Shown in pieces: positions 36,155 through 45,686 of a stretch of 64,000 nucleotides of DNA. The notes beneath the pieces are model-generated. The model was not told the origin of the DNA. It was given only the letters and a program-made list of their open reading frames with translations, and did not search any database. Every line of letters starts with the position of its first letter. Position 1 is the first letter of the stretch. Made by a program: the position numbers and the translations under genes. Origin of the DNA: Candidatus Saccharimonadota bacterium (GTDB lineage Bacteria; Patescibacteriota; Saccharimonadia; Saccharimonadales; Saccharimonadaceae); contig JAUMYN010000001.1 of the NCBI GenBank assembly GCA_030528625.1, positions 124,001-188,000 of the forward strand, given 5' to 3'.

Positions 36155-37705
36155 ATGACAGTACGCTATATTCTCTTTCCCGGCCGTCACCATATCGTGA
36201 CGAAATTTCAGATTGATTATTTACGCCAATTACTGACGCAGCACCCGGAGGCGCAGATTGTTTGGGCGATTACATCAGCTGACCATACTGGTACCCAGCG
36301 CAATCCGATTCCGGGCTATCGCCGTCTTGGTATGATTGAGGCGGCGGCTCAGGCAAGCGATCTTGGCGGTATGACCTACATGATTCCAAATCGTACGCCA
36401 AAGGCTGATTTTGTGCATTATCTCATCGAGGAGATCCGCACCCAGACGGGCGGCCGGTTAGCGATGACACCGAAGAATACGATCATCGCCTGTTCAACGC
36501 CAGCATTGATCGCGGCATATCAAGCGCACGGTTTTACGGTGGAGACAGTTGAACTCAGTACCGAAGCGCTGCGGCCATGGGATATTGTGGAGCGTATGAT
36601 CGCGGTGGGTGAGGATTGGCAGACGGACGAAGCATTGATCAGGCTGATTGACCCAGCGGCGCTAGCATATTATCGGCGCTATGACATCGCCCGCTACATC
36701 CAGTCGGTGTATGCTGATCCGCTAGTCAGTAGTGATGATGGTGACATTACAGTGTCGCGTGATTATGCCAGCTACCGTGCGGCGTTTGAGGATAATGCGT
36801 GGCGCAAGGTGCAGGACATCGCAGCGTTTGTACAGCCAGGGAGGATCATTGATGTGGGATGCGCCACCGGGCAAACTATTAAACTGCTTGCTACCGATCA
36901 GCCGCGGCTATTTGAATCGGATTTTTATGGCGTTGAAGTGGCGCGCCCGCTGTATGAAATTTGCCAGCAGCGCAAAGCGAACGGCGAATTTGGTGACGCC
37001 AATGTTTATTTCTATCAGCGTAATATTATGCAAAGCGAACTGTTTGAGGATAATTCAATCAATACCGTCATCACCATGGCGCTGACGCATGAGATTGAAT
37101 CGTATCTCGGCAGGTCAGAGCTGACGGCATTTTTGCGACGGGTATACGACATGTTAGCGCCGGGCGGTGTCTATATTAACTATGATGTGGTCGGGCCGGA
37201 TCAGCCTGACGATATGGTGTATGTACTGTTCAACGAGGCTGACGGGCAGCCACTGCCAGACAATCAGCCGCTTATCCGCGCGACGCCCGAGGAGCTGGGG
37301 CGATTATCGTCGTCGGCGCGGTTTCGGCAGTTTTTACATGATTTTCGTGCTGAGGAAGGCGAATCGCATGCGACTGAGTGGCGGGTGATTGACGGACAAG
37401 AGTATGTCTATATGCCGCGGCGGCTACTGTATGAGTTTTTGGCCAAAAAGGACTATGTGAATAGTTGGTATAGTGAAATGCACGAAACATTTTGCTTCTT
37501 TACGCATGACGAGTGGCGCCAGGCGCTTGACGCGGCGGGCTTGATGTGCGGCGATGGCACACGGCCAGTGCAAAATCAGTGGCTGATCGATAATCGCTTT
37601 GCGCCAGCAGCGAAAGTGTACCGCATGAATCAAGACGGCGTATTGGCGCCGGACGATTGGTCGTGGACAAATACATTATTGGTGGCACATAAGCCTGTAG
37701 ATTAA
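36155..37705 (+). CDS. NMN-adenylyltransferase-like domain fused to a SAM methyltransferase
   Basis: 516 residues. The N-terminal ~175 align by eye with NadM/NMNAT-type nucleotidyltransferases: start YILFPGR, a middle SADHTGTQRNPIPGYRRLGM, and LSTEALRPWDIVERMI where the family has its ISxTxIR motif. The (H/T)xGH catalytic motif reads TKFQ (residues 16-19), so the key His and Gly are missing. The C-terminal half is a class I SAM methyltransferase: IIDVGCATGQT (about 230), a YGVEVARP strand and MLAPGGVYINYD. Divergent from pncA with shared operators. NAD-related modification is a guess; an active adenylyltransferase is doubtful. Confidence 0.72.
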   Translation: MTVRYILFPGRHHIVTKFQIDYLRQLLTQHPEAQIVWAITSADHTGTQRNPIPGYRRLGMIEAAAQASDLGGMTYMIPNRTPKADFVHYLIEEIRTQTGGRLAMTPKNTIIACSTPALIAAYQAHGFTVETVELSTEALRPWDIVERMIAVGEDWQTDEALIRLIDPAALAYYRRYDIARYIQSVYADPLVSSDDGDITVSRDYASYRAAFEDNAWRKVQDIAAFVQPGRIIDVGCATGQTIKLLATDQPRLFESDFYGVEVARPLYEICQQRKANGEFGDANVYFYQRNIMQSELFEDNSINTVITMALTHEIESYLGRSELTAFLRRVYDMLAPGGVYINYDVVGPDQPDDMVYVLFNEADGQPLPDNQPLIRATPEELGRLSSSARFRQFLHDFRAEEGESHATEWRVIDGQEYVYMPRRLLYEFLAKKDYVNSWYSEMHETFCFFTHDEWRQALDAAGLMCGDGTRPVQNQWLIDNRFAPAAKVYRMNQDGVLAPDDWSWTNTLLVAHKPVD

Positions 37706-38376
37706 AAATCAGTATGTAATGCCGTCAGTGTTGGTTGGTGGAAAGCATAGAGCTTAGCCGGACGATGTGCACCATTGCGCTGCATATGACCGGTTTCGTG
37801 AATCATATCAAGGCTGGCGATTTTCTTACGGAAATTACGCTTGTCAAGCGGCTGGCCCAGCACAGCTTCATAGGTTTGCTGTAGGTCAGACAGGGTAAAT
37901 GTCGCTGGCAACAAACCGAAAGCAATCGTGGTGTAGTGTAGCTTGCCGGCCAGTCTTTTGCGCGCGAGTGCGATGATTTCCGCATGATCATATGCCAGCG
38001 TCGGTAGCTCGTCAACTGGCCAGAACTGGGCATTATGAGGCGCGCCGTCACAGTTGATCACCGTGCCCAGCGCCATATAGACCACCGACACCGCATGGCC
38101 GCGCGGGTCCCGTGCCACCGTGTCAAATGTATACAGCTGCTCCATATGCTGCGCGTCAGCGTCCAACGATACGCCGGTTTTGGCGAGTGTTACCGCCATA
38201 ATGGCATCAACTGTCGTCTGACCTTGGCTGCAATACCCGCCCGGCAGCGCCCACTCCCCGGCAAATGGCTCGCGTGGCCGCTGATGGAGTAATACCTCTA
38301 GTCCGCCAGCACCCACCTGAAACACCACGGCATCAACCGTTAGTGTTGGCGGGGTGTAGGGCGAAGCGTGTGTCAC
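37702..38376 (-). CDS. NrtR-type transcriptional regulator (degenerate NUDIX plus winged helix)
   Basis: 224 residues. N-terminal NUDIX fold whose box has lost its catalytic residues: after GGYCSQGQTT comes MAVTLAKTG where enzymes have REXXEE. The C-terminal domain is winged-helix-like (YTTIAFGLLPATFTLSDLQQ, then KRNFRRKIASLDMIHETG and RPAKLYAF), the layout of NrtR regulators, which repress NAD biosynthesis genes and sense ADP-ribose or related molecules. The neighbouring pncA/pncB genes support this. It begins with GTG; TAAACT lies six bases upstream. It overlaps the 3' end of the fusion gene by four bases. Confidence 0.85.
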   Translation of the reverse strand: MTHASPYTPPTLTVDAVVFQVGAGGLEVLLHQRPREPFAGEWALPGGYCSQGQTTVDAIMAVTLAKTGVSLDADAQHMEQLYTFDTVARDPRGHAVSVVYMALGTVINCDGAPHNAQFWPVDELPTLAYDHAEIIALARKRLAGKLHYTTIAFGLLPATFTLSDLQQTYEAVLGQPLDKRNFRKKIASLDMIHETGHMQRNGAHRPAKLYAFHQPTLTALHTDF

Positions 38377-41122: not shown

Positions 41123-43954
41123 ATGAAACGATACAATCCGACCGAGATCGAACAGAAATGGCAAGCTCAGTGGGAGGCTGAGGGGACGTATGTAGTGAAC
41201 CTGCACGACACGACTCGTCCCAAATACTATAGTCTCAGCATGCTTCCTGGCATCACTGGCGCGGGCATTCACATCGGTCACGGTCGGACTTTTCAGTTTG
41301 CCGACATCAAGGCGCGATTTAAGCGCCAGCAGGGCTACAATACCTATCATCCGATCGGTTGGGATAGTTTTGGGTTGCCGGTGGAGAATTACGCTATCAA
41401 GGTCGGCAAAACGCCGCGCAAAGCTCACGATGACGCCAAGGAAAATTTCAAAACGCAGCTCAAGCGTCTGGGCTATAGTTATGATTGGACCAAGGAAATT
41501 TCCACCGCTGATCCTGAGTACTACAAATGGACGCAGTGGATTTTTACGCAGCTGTATAAACATGATTTAGCGTATCAGAAGGAGCAGCCACAGTGGTGGT
41601 GTGACACCGACAACACTGTACTAGCCAATGAGCAGGTCGAGGGCGGCAAGTGTTGGCGCTGCGGCAACCCAGTGTCGAAGCGCAACCTCAAGCAGTGGTT
41701 TTTCCGCATCACCGCCTATGCCGACGAAATCTTGGAGGCGACCGACGCGCTGGACTGGACGGAAATGGTCAAAACCATGCAGAAAAATTGGATCGGCCGT
41801 TCGGTTGGGGCTGGGGTTGAGTTTATGCTTGATCTCAAGCCGGCTGATTCTTTGAAGTTTACGCCAGAACTAACCAAACAAATTATTGCTGGTAGCAAAA
41901 CCAGCACCATTCGGTGCGAGTCAAAAAACCTGAAAGTAGGCGATATCGCCGAGCTGATGACGCGGGACGGCGAGATGGTGTCGTCGTTTGGCTATGCCAA
42001 GATCACCAAGGTGCAACAGCTGTCGCTACGAGATATTCCGAATGATATGCCAGGCCAAGCCTGGTACGCTAGCGATGAGGCCAAGCTAGAGGACTACCGA
42101 GCAGCCTATGGCGACTACGTGACGCTTGATAGCATGTTCTGGATATATCAGCTGAGCTACTTCCCGCCAATTACCGTCTTTACCACGCGTCCTGATACTT
42201 TGTTTGGTGCTAGTTATATCGCCCTGGCACCAGAACATCCATTGGTGTCGCGGCTCACCAGTAGCGACGCTCGTGCCAAAGTTGAGGCATACATAGCTCA
42301 GGCTGCCGCCAAATCCGATGTCGAGCGCCAAGAAAACAAAGATAAAACTGGGGTGTTTACTGATAGCTACGCTATCAATCCAGTCAACGGCCAAAAATTG
42401 CCAATTTGGGTGGCGGACTATGTGCTGAGTGGTTACGGCACGGGTGCGGTGATGGCGGTGCCGGCCCATGATGAGCGCGACCTGGCGTTTGCTGAAAAGT
42501 TTAATCTGCCGGTGGTGCGCGTTATTGACACGCCGGAGACCTCGGATGACACAGGTTGCTACACTGGCGAGGGTGAGCTGGTCAATTCTGGCCGCTTTGA
42601 CGGTATGCGCTCAGAAGAAGCACGCGAAGAAATTGTTGCGTGGCTGGAGCAGCAGGGAACGGGCAGGTCGGAGACGACCTATAAAATGCGCGATTGGTTG
42701 ATTTCTCGCCAGCGCTACTGGGGCGCGCCAATTCCCATCGTTCATGTCGAGGGACGCGCGCCAATCGCCGTGGCCGACGAATGCTTGCCGGTCATTCTGC
42801 CAGAAGTAGAGAATTTCAAGCCGACTGGCGGCAACACCTCTGTCCTGGCGCAAGTTGATGACTGGGTGCGCGTCTGGGTCAACATCGAAACTGGCCAGAC
42901 TGCGCCAATCACGGGGCCAAAACCTGCGGGTGACGCTTGGGTGGAAGGACAGCGCGAAACTGACACGCTGGACGGCTATGCCTGTTCAAGTTGGTACTTC
43001 CTGCGATACCTCGATCCGTTCAATGGCCAGCAGGCCTGGGATCCCGAGATTATCAAGCATTGGGCGCCAGTTGATTATTACAACGGCGCCGACCACGCCG
43101 TGGCGCACCTGCTGTACAGCCGTTTTTGGATGCGCTTTTTCCATAAGCTCGGCCTGGTGCCGACACCTGAGCCATTCAAGCGCATGATGTATAACGCCTA
43201 CATCATGGCGCCGGACGGCCAAAAAATGAGCAAATCCAAAGGTAATGTTATCGACCCGATGGAAATTATGGACAGCGGCTACGGCGCGGATGCTTTGCGT
43301 GTGTATGAGATGTTTATCGCGCCATACGACATGGATGCGCCGTGGGATACGCGCGGCGTGCCGGGGACGTATCGCTTTTTGAATCGAGTGTGGAATGTGG
43401 CGCAGGAGTTTGCGGAGCATGACGCTGCTCGCGAACACTCCGCAGCCTCTGTTGGAGGAGGTGATGCCGCCGCCGATCTCCTGCGTCTCACCCACGCCAC
43501 CATAAAAAAAGTCACTCGTGACATTGAAGATGAGAAGTTCAACACGGCCGTGGCGGCGATGATGGAGATGGTGAACGGACTGTACAAGCTAAAGGACGCG
43601 CACGGTTTTGCCAACGAGGAAGCGTGGCGCTTTGCTCTGGAAAGCTTGCTGCAAATCTTGGCGCCATTTGCACCGCACCTCACCGAAGAATTGTGGCATG
43701 AACTCGGTCACACCGACAGCATTCACGTCGACCACTGGCCAAAGTGGGACGAGGCGTATCTGGCGGCTGATACCATGACGATCATTGTGCAGGTCAACGG
43801 CAAACTGCGCGCCAAACTCGAACTCCCCGCTGATACTGATCAAGCGGCGGTAGAGGCGGCGGCTCTGGCCGACGAACACGTCGCACGATTTGTCACTGGC
43901 ACGCCGAGAAAGGTGATTTACCTGCCAGGCAAGCTGGTGAATATCGTTGTGTAG
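41123..43954 (+). CDS. leuS: Leucyl-tRNA synthetase with inserted ASCH-like domain
   Basis: 943 residues. Class I synthetase: GIHIGHGRTFQFADIKARF (HIGH) and KMSKSKGNVIDP (KMSKS), CP1 editing domain with TRPDTLFGASY, and zinc-type CWRCG. Between residues about 236 and 345, just before the editing domain, lies an extra ~110-residue segment absent from usual LeuRS. Its pattern IIAGSKTSTIRCESKNLKVG and later FGYAKITKVQQLSLRDIP resembles an ASCH (PUA-like RNA-binding) domain. The frame is unbroken, so this is a genuine insertion in the protein. Confidence 0.95.
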   Translation: MKRYNPTEIEQKWQAQWEAEGTYVVNLHDTTRPKYYSLSMLPGITGAGIHIGHGRTFQFADIKARFKRQQGYNTYHPIGWDSFGLPVENYAIKVGKTPRKAHDDAKENFKTQLKRLGYSYDWTKEISTADPEYYKWTQWIFTQLYKHDLAYQKEQPQWWCDTDNTVLANEQVEGGKCWRCGNPVSKRNLKQWFFRITAYADEILEATDALDWTEMVKTMQKNWIGRSVGAGVEFMLDLKPADSLKFTPELTKQIIAGSKTSTIRCESKNLKVGDIAELMTRDGEMVSSFGYAKITKVQQLSLRDIPNDMPGQAWYASDEAKLEDYRAAYGDYVTLDSMFWIYQLSYFPPITVFTTRPDTLFGASYIALAPEHPLVSRLTSSDARAKVEAYIAQAAAKSDVERQENKDKTGVFTDSYAINPVNGQKLPIWVADYVLSGYGTGAVMAVPAHDERDLAFAEKFNLPVVRVIDTPETSDDTGCYTGEGELVNSGRFDGMRSEEAREEIVAWLEQQGTGRSETTYKMRDWLISRQRYWGAPIPIVHVEGRAPIAVADECLPVILPEVENFKPTGGNTSVLAQVDDWVRVWVNIETGQTAPITGPKPAGDAWVEGQRETDTLDGYACSSWYFLRYLDPFNGQQAWDPEIIKHWAPVDYYNGADHAVAHLLYSRFWMRFFHKLGLVPTPEPFKRMMYNAYIMAPDGQKMSKSKGNVIDPMEIMDSGYGADALRVYEMFIAPYDMDAPWDTRGVPGTYRFLNRVWNVAQEFAEHDAAREHSAASVGGGDAAADLLRLTHATIKKVTRDIEDEKFNTAVAAMMEMVNGLYKLKDAHGFANEEAWRFALESLLQILAPFAPHLTEELWHELGHTDSIHVDHWPKWDEAYLAADTMTIIVQVNGKLRAKLELPADTDQAAVEAAALADEHVARFVTGTPRKVIYLPGKLVNIVV

Positions 43955-44752: not shown

Positions 44753-45208
44753 ATGGCTTCCAACCGTCATCTGGGGCGAATCGTTGCTCTGCAAACGCTC
44801 TACGAATACGAATTTCGTACGCAAGTCGATGATCAGACCGCTTGTTTTCGGGATATTTTGCGCAGAAATTTGCAAAAATACAAGTCGTCGGTCGATGATA
44901 CGGCCTTTGTTGAGGCGCTGGTGGCTGGCGTAGTAGAGCACCAGTCGGAACTAGACGAGCTGCTGACACCTCTGGCGCCAGAATGGCCGCTGGACAGGAT
45001 TGCGCGGATTGATCGGGCAGTGCTCAGGCTGGGCATGTATGAGCTGCGCTATTCACCGAGCGTACCGCCAAAGGTGGTGATTAACGAGGCGGTAGAGCTG
45101 GCCAAAGCGTTTGGTTCGGATAACTCGGGGAAATTTGTGAACGGCGTGCTTGGCACGGCGTATCGCACCCTTTCGGAGGATGCCGACAATGAAGAAAAGC
45201 AACTTTGA
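44753..45208 (+). CDS. nusB: Transcription antitermination factor NusB
   Basis: 151 residues. All-helical RNA-binding protein of rRNA antitermination complexes. Family segments: SNRHLGRIVALQTLYEYEF at the N-terminus, IARIDRAVLRLGMYEL, VPPKVVINEAVELAKAFG, and KFVNGVLG. The next gene overlaps by 20 bases. Confidence 0.95.
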   Translation: MASNRHLGRIVALQTLYEYEFRTQVDDQTACFRDILRRNLQKYKSSVDDTAFVEALVAGVVEHQSELDELLTPLAPEWPLDRIARIDRAVLRLGMYELRYSPSVPPKVVINEAVELAKAFGSDNSGKFVNGVLGTAYRTLSEDADNEEKQL

Positions 45209-45686
45209 TAGCATAAAAAAGTATTTTGGTGGCCGCAAAAAGCCGTCAATTCAAGAAATTGTCCGCGAGCCGACCGCTGGCGGCGTGGTATTTCGACGCA
45301 ATGCCAAGGGCGAGGCGGAGTTTTTGCTGTACCAGGATGCGCGTGACCGCTGGACGATTCCTAAGGGGCATATTGAGCCGGGCGAGTCGGCTCAGGCGGC
45401 GGCTAAGCGCGAAGTGGGCGAAGAGGCTGGTCTGAAGAATGTCGAGGTCATCGGCTGGCTGGGCAAGATCAACTTTCGCTATCGGCGGGTGGATAAACTA
45501 GTGTTGATCAGCCAGCAGGTGTATCTTATTAAGGCGCTCGATCCAAATGAACAGCTGAAAAAAGAGGAATGGATGAATGGCCTGCGGTGGTTCACTTTTC
45601 ACGAGGCGCTGGACGAGATTGAGTACGAGGATATTGGCAAACTGATCTTGTTGGCGATGAAACGGATTCGACAGGAGAATTTGTAG
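45189..45686 (+). CDS. NUDIX hydrolase
   Basis: 165 residues. A short basic N-terminus, then AGGVVFRRNAKGEAEFLLYQ and an intact NUDIX box: GHIEPGESAQAAAKREVGEE followed by AG. The box resembles Ap4A or ADP-ribose pyrophosphatases more than MutT, but the substrate cannot be told. It overlaps nusB and abuts rnc, so co-expression with RNA-processing genes is likely. Confidence 0.87.
   Translation: MKKSNFDSIKKYFGGRKKPSIQEIVREPTAGGVVFRRNAKGEAEFLLYQDARDRWTIPKGHIEPGESAQAAAKREVGEEAGLKNVEVIGWLGKINFRYRRVDKLVLISQQVYLIKALDPNEQLKKEEWMNGLRWFTFHEALDEIEYEDIGKLILLAMKRIRQENL

Follow-up and report, generated by a model that had tools for sequence, protein, structure and literature searches.

The leucyl-tRNA synthetase (LeuRS) encoded in the window, by which we mean the whole stretch of 64,000 nucleotides analysed here (G000:C3:124001-188000), contains a complete ASCH domain, which belongs to the YqfB branch, folds on its own and is located at the exposed tip of the first CP1 hairpin. 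Judging from the sequences, we tentatively regard this insert as an accessory ASCH domain with a nucleoside pocket, which would have been gained by in-frame insertion and would move among leuS genes with LeuRS as its carrier. We give this reading nearly an even chance.

An ASCH domain inside an otherwise canonical LeuRS

The host gene is a bacterial leuS that scores above the cut-off of TIGR00396. The initial annotation had described the enzyme as otherwise canonical, and its HIGH, KMSKS and editing motifs are indeed intact:

41123..43954, + strand: leuS, leucyl-tRNA synthetase, 943 aa (TIGR00396, 923 bits; Pfam domains)
41270..41281, + strand: HIGH motif, residues 50-53 (sequence; near-invariant columns of the LeuRS alignment)
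42182..42199, + strand: TTRPDT editing-site motif, residues 354-359, right after the hairpin return strand (sequence; invariant alignment columns)
43223..43237, + strand: KMSKS motif, residues 701-705 (sequence; LeuRS alignment)

A full-length model retains the LeuRS fold (mean pLDDT 88.7), with LeuRS structures as its best matches. In this small Patescibacteria genome (788,276 bases, estimated to be 99.99% complete) the window LeuRS had no match above about 70 bits besides itself, and no further LeuRS came to light. As the sole LeuRS found in a near-complete genome, the enzyme must presumably function with its insert.

Comparison with the LeuRS of G005, a member of the same genus (833 aa, 91% identical), revealed a net gain of 110 residues in the window enzyme, all of it in one place and in the context WIGRSxGAxVEF...[insert]...ITVFTTRPDT. 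The insert had been placed at residues 236-345 with a length of about 110. The length holds, but the bounds do not, as the ASCH domain proper spans residues 242-347 and is flanked by short linkers. Nor does it lie just before CP1, as had been proposed. In the full-length model the domain is joined to strands 226-237 and 350-354 and is thus part of the first CP1 hairpin, whose return strand passes directly to TTRPDT:

41801..41833, + strand: first CP1-root hairpin strand, approximately residues 227-237, preceding the insert (AlphaFold2 strand 226-237; LeuRS alignment)
41834..41845, + strand: 5' linker, residues 238-241 (LKPA) (from comparison to G005, a sister without the insert)
41846..42163, + strand: inserted ASCH domain, residues 242-347 (PF04266; AlphaFold2; Foldseek to YqfB; homologous inserts)
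42164..42169, + strand: 3' linker, residues 348-349 (PP) (from comparison to G005, a sister without the insert)

The suggestion that this segment is ASCH/PUA-like was borne out by profile and structure searches. The ASCH profile PF04266 (cut-off 21.2 bits) matched the insert alone with 26.9 bits (E 8e-6) and the whole protein with 22.6 bits. An AlphaFold2 run drawing on 55 related domains returned a model of the domain with a pLDDT of 96.5 and a pTM of 0.86. When this model was compared with solved structures by Foldseek, the best matches were E. coli YqfB (9kyf/9kyh; E 4e-6, TM 0.72/0.80), followed by ZmASCH and then by other ASCH structures, placing the insert within the ASCH/PUA-like beta-barrel fold. 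The initial annotation had asked whether the segment might be a variant of some known LeuRS insertion; this was rejected, since the alignment to the best solved LeuRS covers both flanks of the insert but does not extend across it. An intein-like element was likewise rejected by ends and content: the segment runs D242...F347, followed by the PP linker and I350, it neither starts with Cys/Ser nor ends with HN-C/S/T, and a Pfam search of the insert found no intein or endonuclease.

Pocket residues shared with YqfB

Replacing K21, T24 or R26 of YqfB by alanine kills activity, and the E74A mutation lowers turnover on N4-acetylcytidine (ac4C) 1000-fold, with Glu74 as the proposed acid (PMC6972931). 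An hhalign comparison paired these YqfB residues with K259, T262 and R264 and with the glutamate in a GHE motif, and the corresponding window features are:

41897..41914, + strand: K259-T-S-T262-I-R264, equivalents of YqfB Lys21, Thr24 and Arg26 (insert alignment; hhalign to YqfB)
42056..42061, + strand: Q312-A313, a position occupied by His-Glu in the 11 remaining LeuRS inserts, whose Glu aligns to YqfB Glu74 (alignment; hhalign)

The Lys, Thr and Arg equivalents are kept in all 12 LeuRS inserts of the alignment. An equivalent of Glu74 appears in 11 of them, the window alone having Gln-Ala, so that Ala313 seems to stand where the YqfB-type general acid would be expected. A YqfB-type pocket is therefore likely in these inserts as far as alignment can tell. 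Most carriers would retain a YqfB-like site, and that of the window is expected to be much weaker: with the general acid replaced by alanine, catalysis should be strongly reduced, leaving at most binding. The window insert also falls well below the cut-off of the NCBIfam equivalog NF003443 (19.6 bits versus 93).

Distribution of carriers

An ASCH domain is present in the LeuRS of 8/393 genomes of the class (G000, G016, G183, G307, G453, G455, G423 and G429). Sampling the phylum (n=380) added G625, with ASCH in LeuRS, and G668, with ASCH in a valyl-tRNA synthetase (ValRS):

L173:991-3675, + strand: valyl-tRNA synthetase of G668 with ASCH inserted after ...STLGWP (PF04266)

Scanning contigs of 84,980 species genomes gave 7 loci, all of them LeuRS carriers, by means of two narrow peptide patterns from which absence outside Patescibacteria does not follow. 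New among these were HM.17, a WHONDRS bin and Candidatus Uhrbacteria RIFCSPLOWO2_01_FULL_47_17, the last belonging to another class than the window genome. The insert thus recurs across relatives, and all 12 LeuRS cases, from independent genomes, have it at the same hairpin. The majority of relatives' LeuRSs are without an ASCH domain, including those of all six same-genus relatives with a readable hairpin (G001-G005 and G008).

The nearest relatives of the insert are standalone ASCH proteins of about 110 aa and ASCH-RNase HI fusions from the same phylum, and no relative turned up in one scan of viral contigs. The fusion, with ASCH at the N-terminus, is conserved (L101:722-1522, + strand; L069, L074, L098, L099 and about 15 others) and spans several families of Saccharibacteria-type genomes; in one genome (L180) ASCH and RNase HI are encoded by neighbouring genes. 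At L198 (1404-1730, + strand) a standalone ASCH gene is located about 65 bases upstream of ileS on the same strand. For several standalone ASCH genes of the insert's subfamily (L177, L184 and L193), Nudix-like genes also lie no more than about 2 kb away.

Insert and host gene differ in history

A tree of 55 ASCH domains placed 11 of the 12 LeuRS inserts in one clade (support 100/99), with the G625 insert and the G668 ValRS insert outside it. The separate placement of these two makes at least two insertions into synthetases likely. By contrast, carriers are scattered among non-carriers in a LeuRS tree built without the insert columns. Joint descent of insert and LeuRS would predict one group made up of G016, G307 and G453, and another in which G000 joins G183, G455, HM17 and WHONDRS. 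Approximately unbiased (AU) tests on the inserts rejected both groupings (p 0.002 and 0.014), and on this ground we rejected plain vertical inheritance of the insert together with its host. Of two further LeuRS-like groupings, one was weakly rejected (p 0.044) and one was not rejected (p 0.233). Identities of insert and core are weakly correlated (r 0.14, 54 pairs). One insert clade, set against scattered carriers and the AU rejections, indicates that the history of the insert differs from that of its host gene. We read these trees as movement of the insert independently of LeuRS, with frequent loss; many losses combined with some transfer may account for the pattern in its place.

The dN/dS ratio between G307 and G453 is 0.18 for the insert and 0.055 for the LeuRS core, so the insert is under purifying selection and is less constrained than its host. 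In the window, GC3 of the insert (0.62) matches that of the rest of the gene (0.64), and a search for signs that the LeuRS flanks had moved together with the insert gave nothing significant. Together, these two results give no sign of a very recent arrival.

Occupants of two CP1 sites

The first CP1 hairpin can hold other domains. It contains a Nudix domain in G010, G014, G029 and G416 (loci L032, L059, L062 and L209, the last being G416), and in G414 (L226) an unrelated segment of 124 residues with no significant Pfam match. At a second CP1 site, about 125 residues further on and after VID (G005 residue 365), Nudix was found in 28 of 88 LeuRSs, a non-random sample to which carriers and their sisters had been added on purpose (examples are L034, L036, L094, L108 and L231-L237). 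Nudix identity was checked by Pfam with one insert per site, both matching PF00293. A recognisable Nudix box is present in 23 of 31 Nudix-type inserts (28 from the second site and 3 from the first), which represent several distinct Nudix lineages. Three genomes, G183, G455 and G429, combine ASCH at the first site with Nudix at the second. A 120-residue insert at a third site, after PIPIVNCQSC in G048 (L103), resembles ASCH by eye (GKKS..R and a GD turn); Pfam and hhalign did not support this identity and it was left uncounted.

Two standalone Nudix-like genes also flank the leuS region of the window (45150-45686, + strand, and 37702-38376, - strand). One of them follows a nusB-like gene, an order that recurs downstream of leuS in L108, L109 and L111.

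With relatives carrying ASCH, Nudix or nothing at the exact same spot, LeuRS seems to be a docking platform for swappable domains. In a wider form of this idea, the class Ia synthetases of Patescibacteria, and LeuRS in particular, would offer fixed sites to interchangeable nucleotide-handling domains (ASCH, Nudix and at least one other), which would pass between lineages on their own rather than with the synthetase and add house-cleaning or sensing functions to an essential enzyme. We hold this generalisation to be plausible, though clearly short of an even bet.

Possible roles of the inserted domain

In the scenario we favour, a small standalone ASCH gene of Patescibacteria would have been inserted in frame into leuS, and the domain would then have spread to, and been lost from, other leuS genes by recombination; Nudix domains would have moved likewise at both CP1 sites. 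Being at an exposed hairpin tip, such an insert would leave LeuRS folding and working as usual. The least certain steps concern function: ASCH might be retained as an accessory domain that binds N4-acylcytidine-like or related modified nucleosides and, in most carriers, might hydrolyse them as well, LeuRS serving as a constantly made carrier. This reading draws on the agreement of Pfam, AlphaFold2 and Foldseek on ASCH/YqfB, the invariant Lys-Thr-Arg set and the purifying selection, and on the Nudix inserts, which are also nucleotide-handling domains and mostly keep their box. TmcA (PF13718), the maker of ac4C, is absent from all 15 genomes searched, including the window genome and eight further carriers. 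This argues against self-made ac4C, and an endogenous source was rejected; imported nucleosides or another substrate remain. Counting against an accessory role are the window copy without a catalytic Glu and the faster evolution of the insert than of the core, as expected of weakly used cargo. The lack of a significant co-transfer signal in the LeuRS flanks counts against the proposed movement.

The same observations could mean that the hairpin simply tolerates insertion, and that ASCH or Nudix comes and goes while giving LeuRS and the cell little or nothing. Sporadic occurrence (six readable same-genus relatives without the insert), low frequency (8/393 class genomes), three kinds of occupant at one site (Nudix, ASCH and the G414 segment), the apparent loss of the catalytic Glu in the window and an insert dN/dS three times that of the core all fit this explanation. 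It sits less well with a dN/dS of 0.18, which is still purifying, with pocket residues invariant over phylum-level divergence, and with the acquisition of nucleotide-handling enzymes instead of random domains. We consider it unlikely, though worth serious weight.

Contact with tRNA-Leu was one possibility raised in the initial annotation. A PUA-like ASCH domain could touch the tRNA or help to place its 3' end, altering charging or editing. RNA binding is frequent among PUA-like folds, and the hairpin return strand leads straight to the TTRPDT editing motif. Members of the family also occur fused to RNase HI, within a ValRS and, in one genome, just upstream of ileS. ZmASCH binds and cuts single-stranded RNA (PMC5615036), whereas the closest fold match is YqfB, and in YqfB-type proteins nucleic-acid binding was not detected (PMC9599836). 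Moreover, the LeuRSs of most relatives work without ASCH, and Nudix at the same hairpin suggests that no tRNA task is common to the occupants. A tRNA-directed role appears rather improbable.

We see only a small chance that the domain is a ligand sensor, in which a nucleoside bound in the ASCH pocket would shift CP1 movement and tune charging or editing to nucleotide supply. Its position on the hairpin at the root of CP1, a mobile domain, would suit this, as would a window copy that keeps Lys-Thr-Arg and has lost the acid Glu, as an enzyme-derived sensor might; its sporadic presence between close relatives speaks against it. An assembly chimera or annotation artefact, suggested by nothing more than absence from the sister species, was rejected and has a negligible probability, as the frame is open and stop-free, 12 LeuRSs in independent assemblies carry ASCH at the same codon position of the same hairpin, and the insert matches its gene in GC3.

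Novelty and comparison with known systems

We found no paper in the open-access literature describing ASCH or Nudix inside LeuRS, in agreement with the earlier remark that no description of an ASCH domain embedded in LeuRS was known. In a recent survey of domain insertion, the editing domain of LeuRS is itself counted as an inserted module, and there is no mention of ASCH or Nudix (PMC13114784). ASCH, Nudix and domain insertion are each of an already known kind; what appears new, as a variation on these, is that a single LeuRS hairpin takes up different domains interchangeably. In the usual account of synthetase evolution, appended domains are stable and lineage-wide. By contrast, one hairpin of an essential single-copy enzyme here holds ASCH, Nudix, another domain or nothing among relatives. 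This makes it testable whether symbionts with reduced genomes use synthetases as carriers for nucleotide-handling enzymes. Substrates are known for very few ASCH domains, and what these domains act on becomes testable as well. For practical purposes, both CP1 insertion sites must be masked when LeuRS serves for phylogeny or annotation in Patescibacteria.

The window enzyme shares all core domains and motifs with the LeuRSs of T. thermophilus (2bte/1h3n) and E. coli (4aq7), its best full-length fold matches; the difference is that the best-matching solved LeuRS aligns without the approximately 110 inserted residues (query gap 237-350). E. coli YqfB, an N4-acetylcytidine amidohydrolase (9kyf, 9kyh and 1te7), has in common with the inserts the fold, the Lys-Thr-Arg pocket and, in 11 of 12 cases, the Glu. 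However, identity is only about 20%, YqfB is a standalone protein, and the window copy has Ala at the catalytic Glu. The Zymomonas mobilis ZmASCH, a ribonuclease specific for single-stranded RNA (5guq and 5y6b), also has the ASCH fold (Foldseek E about 1e-5). ZmASCH is standalone and has a Tyr47/Lys53/Ser128 site in its cleft.

Like the insert, inteins and homing elements occupy a single conserved site sporadically and out of step with the gene tree. Unlike them, the insert has no splicing residues at its ends and no endonuclease, and ASCH stays in the folded protein. The BEAN and HABAS insertion domains of RNA polymerase (PMC11515920) are similar in being small homologous domains inserted repeatedly, at several sites, into a large essential enzyme. 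The polymerase domains are reported to follow the tree of life, whereas the LeuRS inserts are scattered with respect to the host gene tree and are of enzyme type.
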